Positions 5,480 through 18,676 of a DNA stretch of 64,000 bases are shown here, one piece after another. The notes under the pieces were generated by a model. It saw nothing but the letters and a program-made list of their open reading frames with translations, was not told the origin of the DNA and did no database searches. This DNA comes from an uncultured Bryobacterales bacterium (GTDB taxonomy: Bacteria; Acidobacteriota; Terriglobia; Bryobacterales; UBA6623): positions 2,828,062-2,892,061 of the forward strand of contig OX638379.1 in NCBI GenBank assembly GCA_951813605.1, in the 5' to 3' direction. How positions within the stretch are numbered: the first letter of the stretch is position 1; every line of letters starts with the position of its first letter. The position numbers and the translations under genes were made by a program.

Positions 5480-7612
5480 TCAGGGGCTTTGCGAGGCCGC
5501 ATCGGTCGGCAGGGCGAACGCGACGTAGCTGCTGCCCGACTCGCCGCCGGTCTTCCCGCCGCCAGCGGCAATCACGACGAACTGGCGCCCGTCGGCCTGG
5601 TATACAGCGGGCGTAGCGTTCCCTCCGGCCGGCAGGGTCGTTTCCCAGAGCAGCTCGCCCGTCGCCTTGTCGAAGGCTCGGAACTTCTTATCGCGCGAAG
5701 TCGCCCCGATGAAGAGCAGGCCGCTGGCCGTGACCACCGGACCGCCGTAGTTCTCGGTTCCCGTCACAGGGACCCCTTGAGCAGTCAGTTCCGGAAACTC
5801 GCCCAGCCGCACGGTCCAATCGATCTCCCCGGAGTCGAGATTCACCGCATTGAGGGTGCCCCACGGGGGCAGAATGGCAGGGTATCCGTCGGGATCGAGA
5901 AACCTGTTGTACCCGTCATGGGTGTACGGAACACCCGTGGAGCTCGGGGAAGTCCCCACCTCCACGGTCTCTCCCGCTTCGCCCTGGAGCACGAATCTCG
6001 CAATTGCCCCTGCGGCTGCGTCGCTCAGGTGGGGGAACGCCGGCATCCGCTCGGATCCGCCGCGAACGATCCGCAGGAATTCTCCCCGGCTCAATCCCAG
6101 TCCCTCGAGAGCAGGGAAAGCCGGCGGGGCGCCGCCGAGGTCGTCCAGGTGGCACGCGGCGCAGTTTTGCTGGTACAGCCGCTTGCCGTTGACCATCCCT
6201 CGCAACTCGGCTTGCTCGACCAGCCGGTGAATCCAGGCCATTTCATTGACGTTCACGTAGAGCAGGCCGCTCTCGGGATCGAAGGCCTGGCCGCCCCACT
6301 CGGCCCCTCCGTCGAAACCCGGAAAGACCACGGTCCCTTGCAAGCTCATCGGGGTGAACATCCCGTCGCTTCGCACCTGGCGGAACCGCTTGAGCACCGC
6401 CTCGCGCGCCTCCGGAGTCCGGTTGGTGAGATCGGCTTCGGTCAGGCGCTGCCGTCCTAGGGGCGGCGGCGCGACAGGCACCAGCTGGCTCTCCGCCAAT
6501 TGCTCGCCGGGCACGTCCGACTCCGCTACCTTCATCTCGCGCAGCGGGAAGAGCGATTCGCCGGTCGCGCGATCGAATACGTAGACATAACTCATCTTGG
6601 TCGAGACCGAGACCGCGTCAATGAGGCGCCCGTCCCGCATCGCGGTCACCAGCACCGGCGGCGTGGGAAGGTCCATGTCCCAGACGTCGTGCCGCACCAA
6701 CTGGCGATGCCAGACGAGCTCGCCGGTCTCGGCGCGCAGGCAAAGCAGCGAGTTGGCGTAGAGGTTGTCGCCCGGCCGGTTGCCGCCCCAGAAGTCGAAT
6801 GCCGCCGAGCCCGTGCCGGCGTAGACCAAGCCCCGCTCCATATCGACCGCCATGCCGGCCCAGGAATTTGCCCCGCCGAGTCTTTTCCAGCCGTCTTCCG
6901 GCCAGGTCTCGTACCCGGGCTCGCCCGGGTGCGGGATCGTGTGGAAGGTCCAGCGCAAAGCTCCAGTAGCGGCATCGAAGGCTCGAATGTAGCCCGGGGC
7001 GCTGGGCAAGGACTCGCTGACCACGCTTCCCACGACGAGGAAATCCCTGTAGACGACGCCCGGGGTTCTCAGGCTGACCGAGAGTTCCATGGCCCGTTCC
7101 GGGAGGTTTCTCCGCAAGTCGATCGCTCCGCCGTCTCCAAACTCGGATATCGTCTCTCCAGTCCGTGCGTCCAGCGCGTAGAGCAGGTGCCGAACGGAGG
7201 CGTAGATCCGCGAATCTTGTCCCTTGCGCCAATGCATGAAGCCCCGGTGCGCGGAACGGCTGTTGTACGGCACGCCGTCGATCTCTAGCCTGCGCGTCCA
7301 GACTTCCTCCCCCGACGCTGCGTTTAGCGCGAACACGAGTCCGCTGGGGCTCCAGCCGTAGAGCAATCCGTCAACGACCAATGGATTGCATTGGATCTGC
7401 GAGCCCCGCGACTCGTCCCCGGTCGTGTAGCGCCACGCGGCCTCGAGATCGGACACATTGCCCGGATGGATTTGCGTCAGCCGCGAGTAGCGCAGCTGTT
7501 CGGGCCCTCCGCCGTAGGTCTCCCAGCCTTCGTACCCGCTGGCCGGCTGTCTGCGCACGTCGCCGCAGCCCGCCAATATGAGGCAGGCCGCCGCAAGGAT
7601 TTCCCAACGCAT
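5480..7612 (-). CDS. PQQ-dependent dehydrogenase (quinoprotein) with embedded cytochrome c domain, lipoprotein
   Basis: This is a periplasmic alcohol/sugar-type quinoprotein dehydrogenase. The start at 7612 gives MRWEILAAACLILAGC, a lipoprotein signal with a perfect LAGC lipobox (C16), so longer upstream frames are rejected. The body is a PQQ-type beta-propeller with repeated blades such as ALDARTGETISEF, AFDAATGALRWTF and AFDKATGELLWET. A heme c motif CAACH at residues 484-488 is inserted before the last blades. At 710 residues it has the usual length for the single-heme 'pyrroloquinoline quinone-dependent dehydrogenase' group. Electrons probably pass from PQQ to the heme and on to a membrane chain. 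No pqq biosynthesis genes are visible. The substrate cannot be read from sequence. A TAGAAT box lies 8 nt before the ATG. Confidence 0.9.
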   Translation of the reverse strand: MRWEILAAACLILAGCGDVRRQPASGYEGWETYGGGPEQLRYSRLTQIHPGNVSDLEAAWRYTTGDESRGSQIQCNPLVVDGLLYGWSPSGLVFALNAASGEEVWTRRLEIDGVPYNSRSAHRGFMHWRKGQDSRIYASVRHLLYALDARTGETISEFGDGGAIDLRRNLPERAMELSVSLRTPGVVYRDFLVVGSVVSESLPSAPGYIRAFDAATGALRWTFHTIPHPGEPGYETWPEDGWKRLGGANSWAGMAVDMERGLVYAGTGSAAFDFWGGNRPGDNLYANSLLCLRAETGELVWHRQLVRHDVWDMDLPTPPVLVTAMRDGRLIDAVSVSTKMSYVYVFDRATGESLFPLREMKVAESDVPGEQLAESQLVPVAPPPLGRQRLTEADLTNRTPEAREAVLKRFRQVRSDGMFTPMSLQGTVVFPGFDGGAEWGGQAFDPESGLLYVNVNEMAWIHRLVEQAELRGMVNGKRLYQQNCAACHLDDLGGAPPAFPALEGLGLSRGEFLRIVRGGSERMPAFPHLSDAAAGAIARFVLQGEAGETVEVGTSPSSTGVPYTHDGYNRFLDPDGYPAILPPWGTLNAVNLDSGEIDWTVRLGEFPELTAQGVPVTGTENYGGPVVTASGLLFIGATSRDKKFRAFDKATGELLWETTLPAGGNATPAVYQADGRQFVVIAAGGGKTGGESGSSYVAFALPTDAASQSP

Positions 7613-7991
7613 AGTCGGCCATTCTATCGCCACCGGCCAGGGCCGGGGTTCGACACCAGCCCCCCTGCATGTCCCCGGGGCGGATGGCTGTGGCGGAAGG
7701 GTGAAACCGCACTCTTGGAAGCGTTCTTGGGCGCTAGCGAGACTCGTCCGCTGCTTGAGCGCAGCCTGTTGAGGCATGAGGCGACAGCCGGTGGCGTCCT
7801 TGTCTTGGTCTTCGCCGAAGTGCGCAGCTATTGCCATGCCATCCCAATAAGCTAGCCTCGCCCGGTGCCGGGACAAAATGCCCGAGTTCGTGTCAGGCCG
7901 GCAGTGCGTGTTGCCAAGCGAGCACTGACCCGGCGACGCGCCAGTGCTTCCCCTCGGACAGCTGTCCTGATGCCAGCCAGGAACGGTCAGC
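7613..7991. other. Intergenic region, no gene recognised
   Basis: This is the 379 bp between the PQQ dehydrogenase start and the BON-protein stop. It holds only the putative -10 box at 7621-7626. No conserved reading frame, tRNA or strong terminator was recognised. Confidence 0.5.
7621..7626 (-). promoter_or_regulatory. Putative -10 element of the PQQ dehydrogenase
   Basis: The minus strand reads TAGAAT, with 8 nt between it and the ATG at 7612. No convincing -35 is seen. The spacing implies a transcript starting about 2 nt before the ATG. Confidence 0.45.
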
Positions 7992-9032: not shown

Positions 9033-10757
9033 ATGCGGGATCCGAAGACCCTTCGCAGCAACAAGTGGTTCCACGGGGACCAGTACGAGCACCTGGCGCG
9101 ACGCGCGTGGCTGCGGTCGGAAGGCCTGGGAGACGCGGCGTTCGATGGCAGGCCGGTCATCGGGATCTGCAACTCCTGGTCCGAGCTGACCAACTGCAAC
9201 GCCCACTTGCGGCAGGTGGCCGAGGCGGTCAAGCGCGGCGTCTGGGCGGCCGGGGGCGTGCCGCTGGAATTCCCCACCATCTCGCTCGGCGAGATGTTCA
9301 TGAAGCCGACCACGATGCTCTTCCGCAATCTCATGTCGATGGATGTCGAAGAGTCGATCACCGCGAACCCGATCGACGGCGTTGTGCTGCTCTGCGGCTG
9401 CGACAAGACCACTCCTGCCCAGCTGATGGGCGCGGCCTCCGCCAACATTCCATCGATCATGGTCACCGGCGGCCCCATGCTGTCCGGGCGCTGGCACGGC
9501 CGCCCGCTGGGATCCGGCACCGACGGGCGCAAGCTCTTCGAAGACCTGCGTGCCGGGCGGATCGGCGAGGAGCAGTGGGCCGAGGTCGAGGGATGCATCT
9601 CGCGGAGCGCCGGGCACTGCACGGTCATGGGCACCGCGTCGACGATGGCCTCGATGGCCGAGTCGCTCGGCATGACGCTGCCCGGCGGGGCCGCCATTCC
9701 CGCCGTGGACTCCAGGCGATACCAGCTGGCCGAGGCCAGCGGGAGGCGGATCGTCGACATGGTCCACGAGGACCTGAAGCCCTCCCGCATTCTCTCGCGA
9801 GAGGCATTCGAGAACGCCGTTCGCACCGACATGGCGATCGGCGGGTCGACCAACGCGGTCGTGCACCTGCTCGCCATCGCGGGCCGCGCCGGAGTGGAGC
9901 TTTCCCTCGACGATTTCGACCGCATTTCGCGAGACACGCCGTACATCGCGGACATCAAGCCGTCCGGGCAGTACCTGATGGAGGACTTCTTCTACGCGGG
10001 CGGGCTGCCTAGCGTGATGCGGGAGCTACGGCCTCTCATCCACGGCGAAGCGCTGACCGTTACCGGACGAACCATGGCCGAGGAGCTGCAAGGAGTCGAA
10101 GTCCGGAACCGGGAGGTGATCCGCTCGCTCGACGCTCCCCTCAACCCGGAGGGCGGGACCGCCATCCTGTACGGCAGCCTTGCGCCCGACGGCGCCGTCA
10201 TCAAGCAGACAGCGGCCTCGCCGCACCTGCTGCGGCACCGCGGCAAGGCATGCGTGTTCGAGCGGTACGATGCGCTCCGCGCCCGCATCGAGGACGACGA
10301 CCTCGAGGTCGACGAGAACACGGTCCTGGTGCTGCAGAACGCCGGCCCGCTCGGCGGCCCGGGCTTCCCCGAGTGGGGGCACCTGCCCATTCCGGGCAAG
10401 CTGCTCAAGGCGGGCGTCAACGACATCGTGCGGGTTTCGGACGCCCGCATGAGCGGCACCAGCTTCGGCACCGACGTGCTGCACGTCTCGCCCGAGGCCG
10501 CCGTCGGCGGCCCTCTTGGAGCGGTGCGAACCGGGGACGAGATCGAGCTGGACGTGCCCGCGCGCAGGATCGAACTGCGCGTCGAGGAGAGCGAAATCCG
10601 ACGGCGCCTCGCAGAGCGCCCCCCGCAGCGTCCGCACTATCGGCGCGGCTACGGCAAGCTTTTCCTGGACCAGGTCACCCAGGCGCACTTGGGGTGCGAT
10701 TTCCGCTTCCTCGCCCGCGAGCCCGAGGAGAACGGCGGTCGCGCGTCCGTCAGTTGA
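9033..10757 (+). CDS. IlvD/Edd-family dehydratase, sugar-acid (arabinonate/xylonate-like) type
   Basis: This is a [2Fe-2S] enzyme that dehydrates 2,3-dihydroxy acids to 2-keto-3-deoxy acids. The 574 residues contain Cys55, Cys123 and Cys196, spaced exactly like the three cluster ligands of Rhizobium L-arabinonate dehydratase (C59, C127, C200). Lys125 in GCDKTTP matches the carbamylated lysine, and the catalytic-serine block SDARMSGTSFG is present. Features such as GEMFMKPTTMLFRNLMSMD and the C-terminal GCDFRFL favour the sugar-acid subgroup over branched-chain IlvD. The gene ends 8 bp inside the convergent DUF3604 gene. No dedicated aldonate pathway genes lie beside it, so the substrate is inferred only. 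Many pipelines would call it ilvD. Confidence 0.88.
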   Translation: MRDPKTLRSNKWFHGDQYEHLARRAWLRSEGLGDAAFDGRPVIGICNSWSELTNCNAHLRQVAEAVKRGVWAAGGVPLEFPTISLGEMFMKPTTMLFRNLMSMDVEESITANPIDGVVLLCGCDKTTPAQLMGAASANIPSIMVTGGPMLSGRWHGRPLGSGTDGRKLFEDLRAGRIGEEQWAEVEGCISRSAGHCTVMGTASTMASMAESLGMTLPGGAAIPAVDSRRYQLAEASGRRIVDMVHEDLKPSRILSREAFENAVRTDMAIGGSTNAVVHLLAIAGRAGVELSLDDFDRISRDTPYIADIKPSGQYLMEDFFYAGGLPSVMRELRPLIHGEALTVTGRTMAEELQGVEVRNREVIRSLDAPLNPEGGTAILYGSLAPDGAVIKQTAASPHLLRHRGKACVFERYDALRARIEDDDLEVDENTVLVLQNAGPLGGPGFPEWGHLPIPGKLLKAGVNDIVRVSDARMSGTSFGTDVLHVSPEAAVGGPLGAVRTGDEIELDVPARRIELRVEESEIRRRLAERPPQRPHYRRGYGKLFLDQVTQAHLGCDFRFLAREPEENGGRASVS

Positions 10758-13128
10758 TCCACACGGGGCTCGCCCAGCCCTTGTTGGTGTCGAGCTGCTC
10801 CATGCGCAGGTAGTAGTAGTCGCCAGGCCGAGGGATCTCGCGATCCTCGTAATCGAATTCCAGATCCATCGACGCTTCCGGGTTCACCAGCTCGCATTCG
10901 AGCTCGAAGAAGGCATCGATTCCCATCATCTTCAGATAGCTGTGCTGGAACGGCTTCTCGCCTTGGGTCCGCCAGCGGTAGTAGCCGTCGCGGCGCAAGT
11001 CCTCGAGCGGAACGGATGCCTCGATCTTTCCCAGATGCGGGTCGTCCAGGGTGAACAAGAGAGAGCCCTCAGCACCGTCGATGCGGACGAGCATGCCGTC
11101 GCGGTCGTTGGAGGTCGCGGCGGTGCTCCAGCGGACGGTCTCGCCGTCCTGACGCATTGATTCGAATTCTTGGTCGCGGTGCAGGAATCGGTCGAGCCGC
11201 AGCGACCCGGATTCCGCTGCCAGGGCCCCCTGTCCCAGACCGACGTTGGCGCGGCGCTGGTAAATGTTGTCGCCCCAGGAGACGCGGGCCATCGAGCCGC
11301 GGCTGCGCGCCGGCTGGATCGCGTGAATGACCTGACCGTTCTTCAGCAGTTCGACACGGGTGAGCGGCTGGGTGCCGGAGACCCGCGCGCGGATGCGGGC
11401 GCGCTCGTGGAGCGCGGAGGACAATTCCCCTCCCATGGGCTCGCCGTTCACACTGAATTCCATGAGGATCCGCTCGTTGCCGGTGACGCCGAAGGTGCGC
11501 CGCTCGTAAAGGCCGTCCCAGATCGCGTCCCTCGTCTTGCCGTAGGCGAACACGCCCGTGAGCGGGTTGGTCATGGTGTAGATCAGGCCTGGATACGAGT
11601 TCCCGAATCCGACGGTGTGATTGTCGCTGGAGGCGGTCGCCGCCAGGCGCAGGCCGGCATCGAGGTGCCTTTGCCAGGACTCCTCGAAGACGCCGTGGAC
11701 CGAGGCTATCTCGAAGCTCCGCTCAATGCGGGGGTCCGTCCGGTGGTTCCAGTTCGGCGGTCCGCCTCCCACGTGCGGTATCACCATAGCCGGCGCTCCC
11801 GAGCGCTCGAGGATCCGCATCATCTCGCCCACATCGGCACGGTGCTGCCGCGGGTCGAGCTGCATCGTCGTGGGGGCATCGTCAGCGTTGTAGATGACGT
11901 TGTGATGCCCGCCGAGCCTGGTGCCCACGCTGTACTCGTACCCGAGAATTGTCACGAAGTCCTTCCAGCCGTTCAGCCGCTTGTTCGCCCGCACCATGTC
12001 AGGCCAGTTGTCCCGCGGATCGGTGAATTTGTCGAAGTGGTAGGCAGGCCCGGTCACACCCAGCGGCATGTGATGGGGGGTTAGCGAGCCGAAGTCCAAG
12101 AGGCCGTTGCGACGCGCGTGCAGGTAGAGCTCCTCGTACGTTCCGCGGCCGTCGTGGAGGTACGTGTGCTGGTGCAGGTCGCCGTAATATACGCGCCTTT
12201 TCGGAAACTTCTCCACCCGGATCGGGTTGCTTGTGCCGCGCAGCGCTCCGTCGCGACTGCGGACATCCAGACGATAGACGCCTTCGTGGCTCGCGACGAC
12301 ATTCGAGGCGACGTAATGCATCAAGGCCGGGTCGTATTCGAACCGTCCTGTCCCCAAGGCCGGGTCGACGAATTCCAGTTCGTGACCTTGATAGTCGCTG
12401 GCCAGCGATCCCCAATCGTCGCTGGCTATCGCTTCCACGCTGAACCGCTCGCCCATGGCAGCATATGCGGGTGCGTAAACGCGCAGCTTGGTGGCGTCGC
12501 CGCCGACCACCTTGAGGAACGCGTCGCCACCGTAATCGCGCGGCCCGAGGTCCGCGCCGGCAATCACAATGCGGAAATTGAACAGGTTCTCGGCATAGTG
12601 CTGCATGCGGACGCCCTTGCCGCCGCCGAGATCGAGGTACACCTTGTCTCCGGGACGCAGCGAGCCGGACTCGAGCGTCGCACCTGCGGTCTTGCGGTAA
12701 GGAAAGACGCTCGGATTGTTGCGCTGGGTCCCATTGGTGAAGATTCGGACTTTCAGCTTCGCCCCCGGGGAGGTCGTCTCGACCGCGAAGTGCGCGGGCG
12801 AGCTCGGATCCTCGACTTGGAATTCCTCGACATCGCTGGTGAAGTGCTTCCAGACCTCGATTGACTCCCCCTGCGCGATGCCTGCTTTCCCGATGGTGTA
12901 CTCGATCCGGATCCGATGCCTCTCGCCGGCTTGGACGACGGGTGCAGTCATGAGCTTGACGCTGCCTTCGAGGGGAAACCCTGGTGGCATGTAGCCGCCA
13001 GGCCGGTACTCAATGCGAAGGCTGGCGGGATCAGCGGCCTCAGACTCGGCAGCAGCGGGACGATCCCGCGCTATGAGAAAGAGCATCGCTGTCGCTAGAA
13101 AGACGGCAAAGATCGCACGGAACTGCAT
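10750..13128 (-). CDS. DUF3604 family exported protein (PHP-like metal site)
   Basis: This is a 792-residue secreted protein. The start at 13128 gives a Sec signal peptide, MQFRAIFAVFLATAMLFLIA. The central region has YYGDLHQHTYLHDGRG with GDLHQHT at 316-322, then LTPHHMPLG, IPHVGGGPPNW and ASSDNHTVGFG. These His/Asp motifs resemble the metal site of PHP-type phosphoesterases, and DUF3604 has no firmly established function. The extreme C-terminus (DNKGWASPVWIN-like) is shared with the second DUF3604 gene at 33990-36449, whose end reads WGSPFWVNY. TACAAT lies 10 nt before the ATG. The N-terminal 300 residues look like beta-sandwich sequence without a named match. Confidence 0.85.
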   Translation of the reverse strand: MQFRAIFAVFLATAMLFLIARDRPAAAESEAADPASLRIEYRPGGYMPPGFPLEGSVKLMTAPVVQAGERHRIRIEYTIGKAGIAQGESIEVWKHFTSDVEEFQVEDPSSPAHFAVETTSPGAKLKVRIFTNGTQRNNPSVFPYRKTAGATLESGSLRPGDKVYLDLGGGKGVRMQHYAENLFNFRIVIAGADLGPRDYGGDAFLKVVGGDATKLRVYAPAYAAMGERFSVEAIASDDWGSLASDYQGHELEFVDPALGTGRFEYDPALMHYVASNVVASHEGVYRLDVRSRDGALRGTSNPIRVEKFPKRRVYYGDLHQHTYLHDGRGTYEELYLHARRNGLLDFGSLTPHHMPLGVTGPAYHFDKFTDPRDNWPDMVRANKRLNGWKDFVTILGYEYSVGTRLGGHHNVIYNADDAPTTMQLDPRQHRADVGEMMRILERSGAPAMVIPHVGGGPPNWNHRTDPRIERSFEIASVHGVFEESWQRHLDAGLRLAATASSDNHTVGFGNSYPGLIYTMTNPLTGVFAYGKTRDAIWDGLYERRTFGVTGNERILMEFSVNGEPMGGELSSALHERARIRARVSGTQPLTRVELLKNGQVIHAIQPARSRGSMARVSWGDNIYQRRANVGLGQGALAAESGSLRLDRFLHRDQEFESMRQDGETVRWSTAATSNDRDGMLVRIDGAEGSLLFTLDDPHLGKIEASVPLEDLRRDGYYRWRTQGEKPFQHSYLKMMGIDAFFELECELVNPEASMDLEFDYEDREIPRPGDYYYLRMEQLDTNKGWASPVWIN

Positions 13129-13438
13129 GGTCCGCCCGATTGTACGAAAGATGCAGGCCCCGGCACCCATACCCGCAGTTTGGGAATTCTCCGGCAGCTG
13201 AGGACAGCGGATGATCCGGAATTGACGGCCGCGGGGCGATCTCTCGCCGTGCATTGGCGTGAACTCAACCCACACGGAAAACGGCGGAAGCAGTGGTTCG
13301 CACGGGGCTAGTCAGAGGGAACCGCTGATGGCGCGGGTTACACCGTAACTCGCGTCCCGGCCGAGCAACCGCCCGTCGGCCGGGTGCCTGCCGCGAGTGC
13401 CAAGCGCCCAGGCGGCCCGCTCGGCTAAGCTTGAGGCA
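13129..13438. other. Divergent intergenic region
   Basis: These 310 bp lie between two outward-facing genes. Apart from the TACAAT box for the minus-strand gene and a TAAGCT seven nt before the plus-strand ATG, no gene or structure was recognised. Confidence 0.45.
13139..13144 (-). promoter_or_regulatory. Putative -10 element of the first DUF3604 gene
   Basis: The minus strand reads TACAAT with 10 nt to the ATG at 13128, so the expected leader is only about 3-4 nt. No -35 consensus is evident. Confidence 0.45.
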
Positions 13439-14881
13439 ATGAAGCACTGGATTCTTCTGGCCTGGCTCGGGTCCGCGCTGCTCCACGCGGCCGATGTCGG
13501 GAGAGCCCCCCTTGTGTTCCGGGAAGATTGGACCGCGACGGCCCCCGCTATCCCGCTGACGCAGCGAGACGTCGCGAATCCCGCACTGAGATTGGCGGTT
13601 CATGGCCAAGGCCCCCCGCTGGTCAAGAAGAGCTTCCACGACGCCCGTGAATGGGACCCCCATTACGTGTGGTCGGGCCTCGCGCAGGATCCCTGGGCCG
13701 TCAGCCTCTCGTTGGCGGACGGCGGGCTCATGGACCTTTCCGGAACCGCGACCGTCCGCTGGCGCACCCGCCAGTCTGGATTTCGCGCCTTGCGCGCCGT
13801 CGTCGAGCTGGAAAGCGGTCAGTGGCTCGTCAGCGAGGAAGCCGACACGGCCTCCGCCCAGTGGCGTGTACGCGAATTCCCGTTCTCCGGTACGCGCTGG
13901 CGCCAGCTCGATATCAAGACCGTCACGGAGGGAGCGTGGGAAACGGCGGCAAGCTTGCGCCGCGTGCGCTCAGTTGGATTCACCGACCTTATGCCCGGCG
14001 GCCGCAGCCGCGCCTGCTCGCGCGTCGACTGGATCGAAGTTTACGGACAGCGCGTGGCGGCCGGGCCGCTCCAAGTCTTCATTCTCTCGGGCCAGTCGAA
14101 CATGGTCGGCTGGGGCAATAGCCTGGAACTCGAAAGCGTGGCGAGATTCGGCCACGACCAACGGCTTCTGATGTTCGAGGACGGGAAGTGGAGGCCCCTC
14201 AAGCCGCACAAGCGGCCCTCCAGGAGCCAGCGCGAGCGGTGGCACATCACAGAATCCACTTTCGGACCGGAGATCGGCTTCGCGCACGCGATGGCCGAAG
14301 CTTGGCCGCGCAGCCGCGTCGGCATCGTCAAGCAGGCCGTGGGAGGCACAGGCATCATGGCCTGGGCACCGGAGTGGAGCGAGCGTGACGCTGGCATCAC
14401 GAACGACGCTCACAAGGGCCCGCTTTACAAAGAACTCCTCGGCAAGGTGCGGGCTGCTGTAGAGGCCAGCGACGCTGAGATCCGCGGGTTCCTGTGGCTC
14501 CAAGGAGCCAAGGACATGCGCGACCGGCGCGCCTCCAGCCGCTACGGCGAAAATCTCGAGACCCTGATTGATTCCCTGCGCCGAGACTTGGGAGTCCCCG
14601 ACTTGCCGTTGCTGGTCGGAAGCTACCGCATGGGCGATCTTCCCGACGAGCTGGCGGATGTCGATCCGTCGGACCACGAATTCGAAGCGGCGCGCCCGGG
14701 GGCCTGGGAGGTGCTGGTCGCGCAGAGCGAAGCGTCCGGACGGATACCGCGCACCGCGACGGTCATCCTTCGCGACCTGCCCCGGCATCCTGGCAACATC
14801 CACGCCAACACCGAGGGCATGCTGATCGCGGGCCGCGAGTACGCCCGTGCGTTCCTCGAGCAATTCGCTGATCGAGAATAG
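13439..14881 (+). CDS. Secreted SGNH hydrolase, sialate O-acetylesterase (SASA/DUF303) family
   Basis: This is a 480-residue exported carbohydrate-esterase-like protein. The start at 13439 gives the signal peptide MKHWILLAWLGSALLHAA. Residues to about 205 form a beta-rich N-terminal region. The catalytic domain begins with VFILSGQSNMVGWG, where GQSNM carries the nucleophile Ser typical of the SASA family. It continues with VGIVKQAVGGTGIMAW and FLWLQGAKDM, and ends near GNIHANTEGMLIAGREYA, which should supply the catalytic His. The family removes acetyl groups from sialic acid or other acetylated glycans. The substrate here is unknown. Confidence 0.85.
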   Translation: MKHWILLAWLGSALLHAADVGRAPLVFREDWTATAPAIPLTQRDVANPALRLAVHGQGPPLVKKSFHDAREWDPHYVWSGLAQDPWAVSLSLADGGLMDLSGTATVRWRTRQSGFRALRAVVELESGQWLVSEEADTASAQWRVREFPFSGTRWRQLDIKTVTEGAWETAASLRRVRSVGFTDLMPGGRSRACSRVDWIEVYGQRVAAGPLQVFILSGQSNMVGWGNSLELESVARFGHDQRLLMFEDGKWRPLKPHKRPSRSQRERWHITESTFGPEIGFAHAMAEAWPRSRVGIVKQAVGGTGIMAWAPEWSERDAGITNDAHKGPLYKELLGKVRAAVEASDAEIRGFLWLQGAKDMRDRRASSRYGENLETLIDSLRRDLGVPDLPLLVGSYRMGDLPDELADVDPSDHEFEAARPGAWEVLVAQSEASGRIPRTATVILRDLPRHPGNIHANTEGMLIAGREYARAFLEQFADRE

Positions 14882-14983: not shown

Positions 14984-16168
14984 ATGACAGAGTTGCACGC
15001 ACGCTGGCTGAAGAGCGTCAGTCGCAGGCGCGCTCTCGCGGGATTCTTGGGATTTCTGGTCGGGGCCCCGCGAGCGGGCGGCCAGCTCGACCGGTTTCGC
15101 GACCACAGCCGAGTCGGCGGACTCGCGGAAATGCGGGACGTTTTCGACTTTGAGGCGGCCGCCTACGAGCGCCTCGACCGAGCCACCTACAACTACACCG
15201 CCCGCGGGGGCGGAAGCGAATTCACCACGCGGCGGAATCGAGAGGCGTTCGATTGGGTGGGACTCGTTCCGCGCGCGATCGGCGAGATCGGCACACCGCA
15301 AACCGCGACGGAAATCCTCGGCACGCGGATGCGATTCCCGGTCATGCTCGCGCCGTCAGCGGCGCACGCAGTGCTGCATCCCGACAAGGAGGCAGGAACC
15401 TACGCTGGCTGCAAGAACGCATCGGAAACGCCGATGATCCTTAGCCATGTCGCCAGCATGTCGTTCGCCGAGCTGGCCAAGATCGACGGCGGCCCTCTTT
15501 GGTTTCAGCTGTATCCGCGGAAGGAGCTCGAGCAGAACCGCGAGCCGGTCGAATCCGCTCAGAATGCGGGTGCCGGTGCCATCGTGGTCACGATCGACCA
15601 GCAAGCGTCCGTCTACGACCGGGCGGTCCATGACCGCAATCTGTCGCTCAGGCCCCGGCGTCCTCCGCGCTTGGACGGCAACGACGGCCGCTACCGATTC
15701 TCCTCGGGCCGAATGTGGTACGAGTGGAGCCTCTTCGAGAACCTGCGCACGATGGTCAGGGTGCCGATGCTGGCGAAGGGCATCCTGACGCGAGAGGACG
15801 CGCTGCTCGCCGTCGAGCACGGCCTGGACGGGATCGTGGTGTCCAACCACGGAGGGCGCACGCTGGACTACACGCCGTCCAGCCTGGAAGTCCTGCCCGA
15901 GATCGTCGAGGCAGTGGCAGGCCGCATCCCGGTGCTGATCGACAGCGGATTCCGGCGAGGCAGCGACATTCTCAAGGCCTTGGCCCTGGGCGCCGACGCC
16001 GTGTGCCTTGGACGGGTCCCGCGCTGGGGTCTCGGGTCTTTCGGCGCTCCAGGCGTGACCCGAATTCTCGAGATCGTGCAGCAAGAGCTGCTCGAGGCCA
16101 TGACGCGCTGCGGCGTCGCGTCCCTGGCCTCCGCGGACGGCTCGCTGGCACGGACGGACTTTCCGTGA
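14984..16168 (+). CDS. FMN-dependent alpha-hydroxy-acid dehydrogenase, Tat-exported
   Basis: This is a 394-residue (S)-2-hydroxy-acid oxidase/dehydrogenase (glycolate oxidase/lactate dehydrogenase fold) with an N-terminal twin-arginine-like signal, SRRRALAGFLGFLVGAP. The TIM barrel has the FMN-binding MLAPSAAHAVLHPD, QLYPRKE, VTIDQQASVYDRA, the active-site block VVSNHGGRTLD (catalytic His and substrate Arg) and VLIDSGFRRGSDILKALALGADAV. The second Tyr of the usual QLYVY is replaced. The ATG at 14984 is chosen because it places the Tat motif at the N-terminus; an in-frame GTG at 14936 is possible but directly abuts a TACAAT box. The stop overlaps the GTG of a paralogue (GTGA), so the two are translationally coupled. 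Confidence 0.87.
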   Translation: MTELHARWLKSVSRRRALAGFLGFLVGAPRAGGQLDRFRDHSRVGGLAEMRDVFDFEAAAYERLDRATYNYTARGGGSEFTTRRNREAFDWVGLVPRAIGEIGTPQTATEILGTRMRFPVMLAPSAAHAVLHPDKEAGTYAGCKNASETPMILSHVASMSFAELAKIDGGPLWFQLYPRKELEQNREPVESAQNAGAGAIVVTIDQQASVYDRAVHDRNLSLRPRRPPRLDGNDGRYRFSSGRMWYEWSLFENLRTMVRVPMLAKGILTREDALLAVEHGLDGIVVSNHGGRTLDYTPSSLEVLPEIVEAVAGRIPVLIDSGFRRGSDILKALALGADAVCLGRVPRWGLGSFGAPGVTRILEIVQQELLEAMTRCGVASLASADGSLARTDFP

Positions 16169-17220
16169 GCCGCTCGGCCTTCAACAGGCGCCAGGCGCTG
16201 GCCAGCTTCGCCGGGCTTCTCGCGGCGTCGCCCTGGCTGCGAGCGCAGCGCGCGCCGCGCCTCGCAGGCGAGCCGCCCGGGCGCATGACTCCGCTGGACG
16301 CGTTCGCCAACGTGCCGGAATTCGAGCCGATGGCCGAGCGGGCCTTGAGCGACGAGGCGTTCGCGCGGATCGCAGGCGGCGAGCGCAGCGCGCTCGAGCG
16401 CATCACCTTCCGGGCCCGCATGATGGTCAACACGGAGGGGCTGGACTTGTCGCTCAACTTGTTCGGGCAATCCATGTTCGCGCCGATCCTAGTGGGGCCG
16501 GCGAGCGGGCAGGGGCGCGTACACCCCGAAGGCGAGCGGGCCACAGCCAAGGGGACCGCCGCGGCCAAGGCGACCCTCGTGACAGCCGAGCGGAGCGGCT
16601 CGCCCGTGGAGGAAACCGCTCCGCTGGCTCCGGGGGCGTGGCGGCAAGTCTATCCGCGCAGCGACTTCGAGGCGCTGATCGCCCACGTGGCACGAGCCGC
16701 GCAATCTGAATGCGCGGCAATCTCCCTGACGCTCGGCGACGCCGGCAGGGAGGCCGGCGACGCAGCCGGCTTTGGCTGGGACAAGATCGAGCGCCTGCGG
16801 GACGCAGCCGGACTTCCATTGGTGCTTAAGGGCATCATGCAGCCGGCGGACGCGCGGGCGGCGGCAGACCGCGGGATCGCGGGGATCATCGTTTCCAACC
16901 ACGGCGCGGGACAGGCCGAGGGCACGACCGAGCCGATCAGCGCCCTGCCCGCGGTGAGCGAGGCGGTCGAAGGCCGCATCCCGGTCCTGGTCGACGGGGG
17001 GTTCCGTCGCGGCGGCGATGTGCTGAAGGCGATCGCGCTTGGCGCGACCGCCGCGCTCGTCTGCCGCCCGGCGCTGTGGGGCCTGGCGGCCTATGGCGCG
17101 GCCGGGGTCCAAAAGGTAGTCGAGATGCTGCAGACCGAGCTTGCCCAGGATATGGTGCAGGTCGGAGCCGTCAACCTAGCGGCCATCCGCCGCGACCATG
17201 TGCGGGTGCACAAGCGCTGA
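16165..17220 (+). CDS. Diverged FMN alpha-hydroxy-acid dehydrogenase paralogue, Tat-exported
   Basis: This is a 351-residue relative of the preceding enzyme with its own Tat-like signal, NRRQALASFAGLLAASPWLRA. The start is the GTG at 16165, which shares bases with the upstream stop codon. It keeps the barrel landmarks ILVGPASGQGRVHPEGE, LPLVLKGIMQ, IVSNHG and VLVDGGFRRGGDVLKAIALGA. The catalytic block reads SNHGAGQAEG instead of SNHGGRxLD: the His is kept, but the Arg that binds the substrate carboxylate is gone. The VTIDxxxxGxRxxD region is also altered (ISLTLGDAGREAG). FMN binding is likely; activity on 2-hydroxy acids is doubtful. It may form a hetero-oligomer with its neighbour or act on another substrate. 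Confidence 0.78.
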   Translation: MSRSAFNRRQALASFAGLLAASPWLRAQRAPRLAGEPPGRMTPLDAFANVPEFEPMAERALSDEAFARIAGGERSALERITFRARMMVNTEGLDLSLNLFGQSMFAPILVGPASGQGRVHPEGERATAKGTAAAKATLVTAERSGSPVEETAPLAPGAWRQVYPRSDFEALIAHVARAAQSECAAISLTLGDAGREAGDAAGFGWDKIERLRDAAGLPLVLKGIMQPADARAAADRGIAGIIVSNHGAGQAEGTTEPISALPAVSEAVEGRIPVLVDGGFRRGGDVLKAIALGATAALVCRPALWGLAAYGAAGVQKVVEMLQTELAQDMVQVGAVNLAAIRRDHVRVHKR

Positions 17221-17236: not shown

Positions 17237-18676
17237 TCACTCCGCGTCGGGGTTGGGAAGCGGCTCCTGCGCGCCCACTTCCGCTCTCCACGCGTCCAGC
17301 TTGCCGAGCAGCTCGGCTGCCTTGTCCGGCATGGCGGCCGCCAAGTCGCGCTCCTCTCCGACATCCGCGGCTAGGTGATACAACTCGGCCCGCCCGTCCT
17401 CGTAGAAGTGCACCAGGCGCCAACCGCCTTCCCGGATTGCAGAATACGGTGTCGCGCCCCCGGCGTGGTAGTGCGGGTAGTGCCAGAAGAGCGTATCGCG
17501 GTCCAAGCTCGAGGCCGGGTCGCGCAGCAGACCGGCCAGGCTCACGCCGTCGACCGACTCGTTATGCGCCGCGTTGCCGGAAACGCCGGCGATTTCCAGC
17601 ACGGTCGGGTAGATATCCACCGTGATCACGGGCACGTCGCTCACCGCTCCCGCCGGTGTCACTCCGGGCCAGTAGTACATCGTGGGTGTCCGCACTCCGC
17701 CTTCGTAGGCCGAGCCCTTGCCCGAGCGGAGGGGCGCATTCTCCGTCGGATTGCCCATCCGCCCGTCGCGGCCCTGGCGGTCCAGCCCTCCGTTGTCGCC
17801 GGTGAAGACAATCACGGTGTCCTCGGCGATGCCCAGCTCGTCGAGCTTGCCCCGCACGCGCCCGACGCTGCGGTCCAAGGCGGCTAGCATGCCGGCGTAG
17901 GCCGGATTGCGGTGCCGTCTCCCTGCATCGACACGGGACTCGAAGCGCGCCAGGTCTTCTGGCTTGGCCTCGATCGGCGTATGGACTGTGTAGTAGGGGA
18001 AGTACAGCAGAAACGGGTCGTCCCTGTACTCCTCGAGAATCTTCAAGGCCTCGTCCGTCAGGCGGTCTGTCAGATAGTCTCCGTCGGCCCCTCCCTCCGG
18101 CAAGGGATACACCCTGCGGTCTCTGCGCTCGTACGGGTGGAAGTAGCTTCCCGGCGCTCCCCATTCGTTGCCCGCGACGTTTCGCTCGAAGCCGTGCCGC
18201 TCCGGAGCGAAATCCATCATCGCCTGCGGGTCGAAGCGCGGCATGAGATGCCATTTCCCGACATGCGCGGTGCGGTAGCCAGCCGCTCCCAGCGCCTCGG
18301 CCAGCGTCGTGTAGCGATGCTCGAGCCGCATCGTCCACTCCGGCGGCTTCAGCTTCGCACCGGGACGCCGCTGGCCGGGGATCCAGTCTGTCACGTTCGT
18401 GCGCCCGGGATACAGGCCCGTCAGCAGGGCCGCCCTGGTCGGCGAGCACACCGTGCAGGCCGCGTAGCCGTGGGTGAAGCGGACACCGTCGTCCGCAAGC
18501 CCGTCGATGTTGGGAGTCTCGTAGAAGTCGCTGCCGTAGCATCCCAGATCCGTCCAGCCGAGATCGTCGACAAGGAAGATGAGGAAATTCGGGCGGCGAT
18601 CGTCGAGGGCCGTGTTCGAAGGGGCGCCGCATTCCGCCAGAAAGGCAACCGCGGCGACGGCTAGCAGAAGACGCAT
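17237..18676 (-). CDS. Type I sulfatase (arylsulfatase family), exported
   Basis: This is a 479-residue formylglycine-dependent sulfatase. The N-terminus is MRLLLAVAAVAFLAECG, a signal peptide or an imperfect lipobox. Metal ligands Asp37 and Asp38 lie in FLVDDLGWTDLGCYG. The maturation motif CSPTR occupies residues 77-81, where Cys77 would become formylglycine. ETPNIDGLADDGVRFTHGYA, HVGKWHL and VIVFTGDNGGLDRQG complete the pattern. No formylglycine-generating enzyme or anaerobic maturase is seen in the window. The length is normal for sulfatases of 450-500 residues, which hydrolyse sulfate esters of polysaccharides or small aryl sulfates. A TAGAAT box lies exactly 6 nt before the ATG, indicating a leaderless mRNA. 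Confidence 0.92.
   Translation of the reverse strand: MRLLLAVAAVAFLAECGAPSNTALDDRRPNFLIFLVDDLGWTDLGCYGSDFYETPNIDGLADDGVRFTHGYAACTVCSPTRAALLTGLYPGRTNVTDWIPGQRRPGAKLKPPEWTMRLEHRYTTLAEALGAAGYRTAHVGKWHLMPRFDPQAMMDFAPERHGFERNVAGNEWGAPGSYFHPYERRDRRVYPLPEGGADGDYLTDRLTDEALKILEEYRDDPFLLYFPYYTVHTPIEAKPEDLARFESRVDAGRRHRNPAYAGMLAALDRSVGRVRGKLDELGIAEDTVIVFTGDNGGLDRQGRDGRMGNPTENAPLRSGKGSAYEGGVRTPTMYYWPGVTPAGAVSDVPVITVDIYPTVLEIAGVSGNAAHNESVDGVSLAGLLRDPASSLDRDTLFWHYPHYHAGGATPYSAIREGGWRLVHFYEDGRAELYHLAADVGEERDLAAAMPDKAAELLGKLDAWRAEVGAQEPLPNPDAE

Follow-up and report, generated by a model that had tools for sequence, protein, structure and literature searches.

Two overlapping genes of an uncultured Bryobacterales bacterium probably encode an obligate heteromer exported by the Tat system, in which the product of the first gene (A) would catalyse and that of the second (B), a degenerate paralogue, would serve as an FMN-holding pseudo-subunit. 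We put the probability of this reading at about 0.78. The genes lie in a stretch of 64,000 nucleotides, here called the window, from a genome that is a single contig of 6.19 Mb. Besides the pair, this genome holds one other full-length match to the family profile PF01070, which carries the usual Arg164 motif, and two short, weak matches.

The initial annotation of the window described two coupled frames at positions 14984-17220, with the stop of the first overlapping the GTG start of the second. We confirmed this arrangement, and both translations match PF01070 (Table 1). The frame of A is open from an ATG at 14984 to a TGA at 16166-16168, and that of B from the GTG at 16165 to a TGA at 17218-17220, the TG of this GTG also beginning the stop codon of A; start codons were picked by hand. 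The match of A covers profile positions 1-347 of 350, and the match of B is split in two stretches. Overlapping start and stop codons of this kind would couple the translation of the two genes.

Table 1 Features of the gene pair and of its surroundings, in positions of the window
Feature	Position	Strand	Basis
PQQ-dependent dehydrogenase with fused cytochrome c domain	5483-7873	-	
DUF3604 protein, function unknown, adjoining the pair repeatedly in the genus loci compared	10753-13275	-	
SASA-type acetylesterase, flanks the pair, recurs in the genus loci compared	13397-14878	+	
Gene A: FMN-dependent alpha-hydroxy-acid dehydrogenase, putative catalytic subunit, 394 aa	14984..16168	+	translation, PF01070 E=2.5e-96, orthologues
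Tat-like signal of A, residues 1-34 (SRRRALAGFLGFLVGA...GGQ), end approximate	14984..15085	+	motif and hydrophobicity rule
Lid of A (GOX T155-K230), 63 residues long (76 in spinach GOX), with Tyr in place of Arg164	15590..15778	+	
SNHGGR of A, with the catalytic His (GOX H254) and the substrate Arg (GOX R257)	15842..15859	+	
GTGA: 4-nt overlap between the start codon of B and the stop codon of A	16165..16168	+	
Gene B: degenerate paralogue (putative pseudo-subunit), 351 aa, has FMN-site residues but has lost catalytic ones	16165..17220	+	translation, PF01070 E=2.8e-75, model matches GOX-type barrels
Tat-like signal of B, residues 1-28 (FNRRQALASFAGLLAASPWLRAQ), end approximate	16165..16248	+	motif rules
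Lid of B, reduced to 34 residues and without the Asp157 and Arg164 positions	16729..16830	+	
SNHGAG of B: His retained, substrate Arg replaced by Gly	16894..16911	+	
Sulfatase with SGSH-type C-terminus, flanks the pair, recurs in the genus loci compared	17240-18676	-	

The pair is not peculiar to this genome. Using 19 pairs as seeds, we searched 257 genomes of the order for B and for A, counting as A-type those loci that reached E≤1e-135. This yielded 54 A-type loci in 52 genomes; the remaining 205 had none at that threshold, so the pair is not essential to the lineage. Conservation of the pair among relatives, a point raised with the initial annotation, was evident at 53 of the 54 A-type loci, where B stands directly beside A or is fused to it: 44 loci have a separate B directly downstream, six more proved to have one on closer reading, and in three (L084, L089, and L107) A and then B form a single in-frame open frame. 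The 4-nt overlap is possible in 38 of the 50 separate pairs. At the one exception (L139), A is followed by an unrelated gene, and the same genome has a second locus with both A and B. B-like loci without A in the stretch read numbered three; two of them (L108 and L111) run off the contig end, and at the third (L088) no A was found within about 2.5 kb. The genome searches scored five to eight first-look candidates per genome, so weak B genes may be missed. The recurrence of the arrangement rules out a chance overlap or an artefact, and the fusions lend support to the predicted binding of B to A.

We also sampled more widely, covering 399 genomes of the class and 396 of the phylum. In the class sample a B match at E≤1e-95 occurred in 37 genomes, every one of them from the same order as the window, and outside the class the phylum sample contained pairs in three genomes of two other families. 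In one of these three genomes the gene order is reversed (locus L134, genome G698), B preceding A, and a protein resembling HpcH/HpaI aldolases, with a signal-like N-terminus, is encoded directly upstream of B (both features judged by eye).

To describe the active sites we used the sequence of spinach glycolate oxidase (GOX) as a ruler; the catalytic, substrate-binding, and FMN-binding roles of the numbered residues are those we take to apply across the family. Window A has Tyr24, Tyr129, Asp157, Lys230, His254, and Arg257, and its active-site motif reads SNHGGRTLD as had been claimed. The lid of A is altered, however, with Tyr in place of Arg164. The same pattern holds in the 47 A proteins counted (44 plus three fusion halves): Tyr129, Asp157, Lys230, His254, and Arg257 are invariant, position 24 is Tyr in 43 and Phe in four, and the Arg164 column, scored by pattern in a gapped loop, contains 39 Tyr, three Phe, one Ser, and four Arg. 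A predicted monomer model of A was poor (pLDDT 45.6) and unusable. The pair shares its fold and FMN site, and A also the catalytic Tyr, Asp, Lys, His, and Arg, with the PF01070 family, which includes glycolate oxidase, lactate oxidase, mandelate dehydrogenase, and flavocytochrome b2.

The corresponding site of B is far more degraded. Its motif reads SNHGAGQAEG, again as initially described, and Tyr129, Lys230, and His254 are kept. The loss of the substrate Arg noted there (Arg257) is real, but the losses are wider: Tyr24, Asp157, and Arg164 are gone too, together with most of the lid, of which 34 residues are left against 76 in spinach GOX (over half gone). We counted residues in 50 B proteins (47 plus three fusion halves) and found Tyr24 retained in none, Asp157 in one, Arg257 in 11, His254 in 19, and Tyr129 in 21. 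As for an intact SNHGGR motif in the B proteins of relatives, the 11 that keep Arg257 do so by alignment and a few read exactly SNHGGR; the near-complete absence of Tyr24 and Asp157, however, means that no B has a complete site.

The FMN side of B presents the opposite picture. Among the same 50 proteins, Ser252, Arg290, and Arg309 are retained in all, Gln127 and Asp285 in 49, Lys230 and Arg289 in 48, and Gly287 in 37. When the columns of B were ranked by entropy, catalytic columns 24, 129, and 257 fell at the 93rd-96th percentile of variability and columns 157 (70th) and 254 (46th) ranked lower, whereas seven of the eight FMN-side columns lay at the 6th-15th percentile and position 287 at the 31st. 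B is also under purifying selection: 36 comparisons within the genus gave dN/dS values of 0.08-0.28, higher in B than in A in 28 of the 36, with many of the pairwise dS values exceeding 1 and thus unreliable. In the subset with dS<0.4 (n=7), dN/dS of B was 0.08-0.13 in five comparisons, 0.16 in L008-L010, and 0.23 in L014-L015. These values rule out a recent pseudogene. A predicted monomer of B (mean pLDDT 68, residues 17-87 mostly below 50) superposes on mandelate and glycolate oxidases with Z of 27.5-29.5, the best match being mandelate oxidase (Z 29.5, rmsd 3.5, 271 aligned). Because constraint is opposite on the two sides of the site and dN/dS is low, B is, as judged from its sequences, a protein whose FMN fold is maintained while its active site evolves largely free of constraint. 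The FMN that it would hold is probably structural.

It is conceivable that B is a decaying duplicate, kept merely through its linkage to A, as the loss of catalytic residues, of the lid, and in many lineages of the export signal might lead one to think. We regard this as very improbable. It is contradicted by the selection acting on B within the genus, and it leaves unexplained why B is found at nearly every A-type locus, why its FMN-site residues are near-invariant, and why three in-frame fusions with A exist.

We then considered export. Signals were scored by simple rules that asked for a twin Arg at the N-terminus and, after it, a hydrophobic stretch free of charged residues, and the N-termini of both window proteins carry this combination (A by the stricter rule, B by the stricter and the looser one). 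The best-known members of the PF01070 family are cytoplasmic, peroxisomal, or mitochondrial, and A and B differ from them in carrying Tat-like signals. By these motif rules, the initial description of both N-termini as twin-arginine-like export signals holds. Such signals are not unusual in this branch, however, contrary to what had been supposed: 17 of 20 single-gene (solo) relatives from the order have RR and a hydrophobic stretch, as seen by eye in the part of the sequence viewed. RR is invariant in 19 of 19 aligned A proteins, and by one rule a Tat-like signal is present in A at 53 of 54 loci (43 of 44, then seven of seven later loci and three of three fusions). The lone exception, L077, has RR but a Glu inside the stretch.

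The signals of B are less uniform. By the looser rule, 30 of the 50 separate B proteins have RR and a hydrophobic stretch, one (L020) has the stretch without RR, and 19 have neither; the stricter rule finds a Tat-like signal in 23 of 47. A is positive in all 19 pairs whose B has no signal, and the three fusions have one signal at the start and, by rule, none between the halves. On the tree described below, at least eight changes of B signal state are required among 35 coded rows, the states having been coded by eye and ambiguous rows omitted. The Tat system exports folded proteins, and hitchhiking would therefore predict pairs with one signal missing. Signal-less B proteins in 19 of 50 pairs suggest co-export with A. 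That B stays in the cytoplasm in these lineages fits poorly with the existence of A-B fusions. Window B has its own signal, so hitchhiking is not needed in the window pair. The pairing at 53 of 54 loci, the three fusions, the 4-nt overlap, and the 19 signal-less B proteins together support what the initial annotation had suggested, a periplasmic heteromer or a repurposed second subunit.

The same observations bear on whether B could be a separate enzyme, one that performs a new FMN-dependent reaction with migrated catalytic residues and shares a pathway with A but not a complex. The retained FMN-site residues and the purifying selection on B are compatible with this idea, as is the match of B to type 2 IPP isomerase (E=3.4e-12), which uses FMN for a different chemistry; among NCBIfam profiles B scores best with that of the mycofactocin enzyme MftD, at 166 bits. 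Yet these matches are far under their cut-offs (46 against 281 bits for IPP isomerase, 166 against 471 for MftD). Moreover, columns 24, 129, and 257 are among the most variable of B, of the five catalytic columns examined, and positions so variable have no shared replacement. Given also that the fusions and the missing B signals favour a complex, we hold a separate enzyme to be quite unlikely.

To place the pair within its family, we built a tree of 96 rows, from which 11 near-duplicate loci, the fusion L089, and 11 of the 20 solo relatives were omitted; the tree and the residue counts both lack the six pairs found later. A forms one clade (SH-aLRT 99), as does B (SH-aLRT 100). The nine solo relatives included are also a clade (96), which joins A (95) and leaves B outside. 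Two histories would fit this topology: B was lost from the solo lineages once the duplication had occurred, or fast evolution draws B outwards. The solo relatives do not come out as direct ancestors of the pair, since the tree groups them with A and places B outside. The Tat-like stretches of 17 of the 20 solo relatives indicate that Tat export probably predates the duplication of A and B. The duplication that gave rise to the pair would then have taken place in a branch of the family already exported through Tat. Afterwards B would have shed its catalytic residues and lid and, in several lineages, its signal as well; A would have changed too, in its lid and at the Arg164 position.

The solo dehydrogenases with Tat-like signals (L083, L085, L087, L092-L106, L109, and L110) have a nearly full catalytic set. 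Tyr129, Asp157, Arg164, Lys230, His254, and Arg257 are kept in 20 of 20, and position 24 is Tyr or, in several, Phe or Asn. We found no description of this exported solo branch of FMN alpha-hydroxy-acid dehydrogenases of the order.

The earliest-branching pairs are L077, L080, and L082, followed by L061. These four are the only ones whose A retains Arg164 (4/47; lost in 43/47), and the B proteins of the earliest pairs still read SNHGGR or SNYGGR, with Tyr24 and Asp157 lost. Going by their residues and position in the tree, the four pairs are intermediates. The lid segments of their B partners are 56 and 72 residues long in two, and 46 and 32 in the others. Distances among A and among B proteins are correlated (r=0.71 across 36 pairs, a value that none of 2000 permutations reached), which adds little because any two linked genes would show such a correlation.

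These early pairs also bear on a further possibility, that both subunits are catalytic, the FMN of B taking electrons from A or relaying them to a carrier, or residues of B completing the pocket of A. If so, the pair would represent a form of the GOX family with two flavins and a division of labour, its export relying on hitchhiking, with a composite pocket in which B offsets the lost Arg164 and shortened lid of A, or with electrons passing from the flavin of B to a periplasmic carrier. The FMN residues of B speak for it, as does the loss of Arg164 from most A proteins, given that the four keepers branch earliest and two of their B partners have long lids. In known four-fold rings, on the other hand, the flavins of neighbouring subunits are far apart, and the FMN of B may serve folding and assembly only. 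For one lactate oxidase, removal of FMN is reported to turn tetramers into monomers, though the authors deem such cofactor-dependent assembly specific to that enzyme (PMC7039449). Overall, we consider shared catalysis unlikely.

The surroundings of the pair say little about substrate or acceptor. At loci of the genus, a DUF3604 protein, a SASA esterase, a sulfatase, a DUF218 protein, and a kinase are found around it; among the neighbours listed, from crude gene calls, none conserved beyond the genus points to a substrate or an acceptor. We rejected the neighbourhood as a functional clue, the neighbours being different in other genera. Several loci, the window and L132 among them, have a PQQ dehydrogenase close to the pair, but the genome has 81 PQQ_2 profile matches, often several per gene, so this nearness means little. 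In another genome (G132, locus L129, positions 2026-2451), a small CxxCH cytochrome-like protein, recognised by eye, is encoded directly upstream of A; it is possibly the electron acceptor in that genus.

Under the favoured reading of a catalytic A with a pseudo-subunit B, the two proteins would fold and acquire FMN in the cytoplasm, assemble, and leave through Tat. A would supply the signal and B would ride along, and since B can travel with A, its own signal would be dispensable. In the periplasm, A would rely on the usual GOX-type chemistry to oxidise an alpha-hydroxy acid or a similar compound. B would be a dead paralogue, its FMN-phosphate barrel kept as a structural or regulatory part that is needed for the assembly, stability, export, or regulation of A. 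Known members of the PF01070 family act as assemblies of active subunits, usually as four-fold rings, and the simplest picture would accordingly be an alternating A-B ring. By contrast with those members, the pair has a second subunit that appears inactive, its lid much reduced and its gene overlapping that of its partner. B may complete or stabilise the ring, as prozymes do for their active paralogues.

Elements of this scheme are known from other systems. Rice GLO1 and GLO4 glycolate oxidases form hetero-oligomers as well as homo-oligomers, both active, and GLO5 is inactive on all substrates tested (PMC5549332). Rice thus resembles our pair in having hetero-oligomers of paralogues from this family and one inactive paralogue; it differs in that the mixed partners GLO1 and GLO4 are both active, GLO5 not being named as a partner in the excerpt of that paper. 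Among the systems compared, the closest mechanistic analogue is provided by the trypanosomatid prozymes of AdoMet decarboxylase and deoxyhypusine synthase, in which, as proposed for B, a dead paralogue belongs to an obligate heteromer and activates its partner (PMC5201418, PMC6221367, PMC3663545). The folds are unrelated, and activation of the partner is reported there, whereas for A and B we infer it. In Escherichia coli PaoABC, subunits are co-exported as a folded complex by a Tat hitchhiker mechanism (PMC4273604), much as we propose for A and B. In comparison with PaoABC as described there, the hitchhiker would here be a paralogue of its carrier, and some lineages have the second signal where others lack it. 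Searches of the open-access PMC literature turned up neither an obligate partner of this family that is catalytically dead nor the Tat-exported pair described here.

The textbook picture of this flavoenzyme family is one of assemblies of active subunits, and the lineage described here would add one with a dedicated dead subunit. B-type genes are likely to be annotated as oxidases, though their products are probably unable to act as such. The apparent intermediate stages are all extant, namely solo proteins, half-degenerate B, fully degenerate B, signal-less B, and fusions. The pair may therefore offer a natural test bed for the passage from a homomer to an obligate heteromer, and for the loss by a passenger subunit of its own Tat signal.
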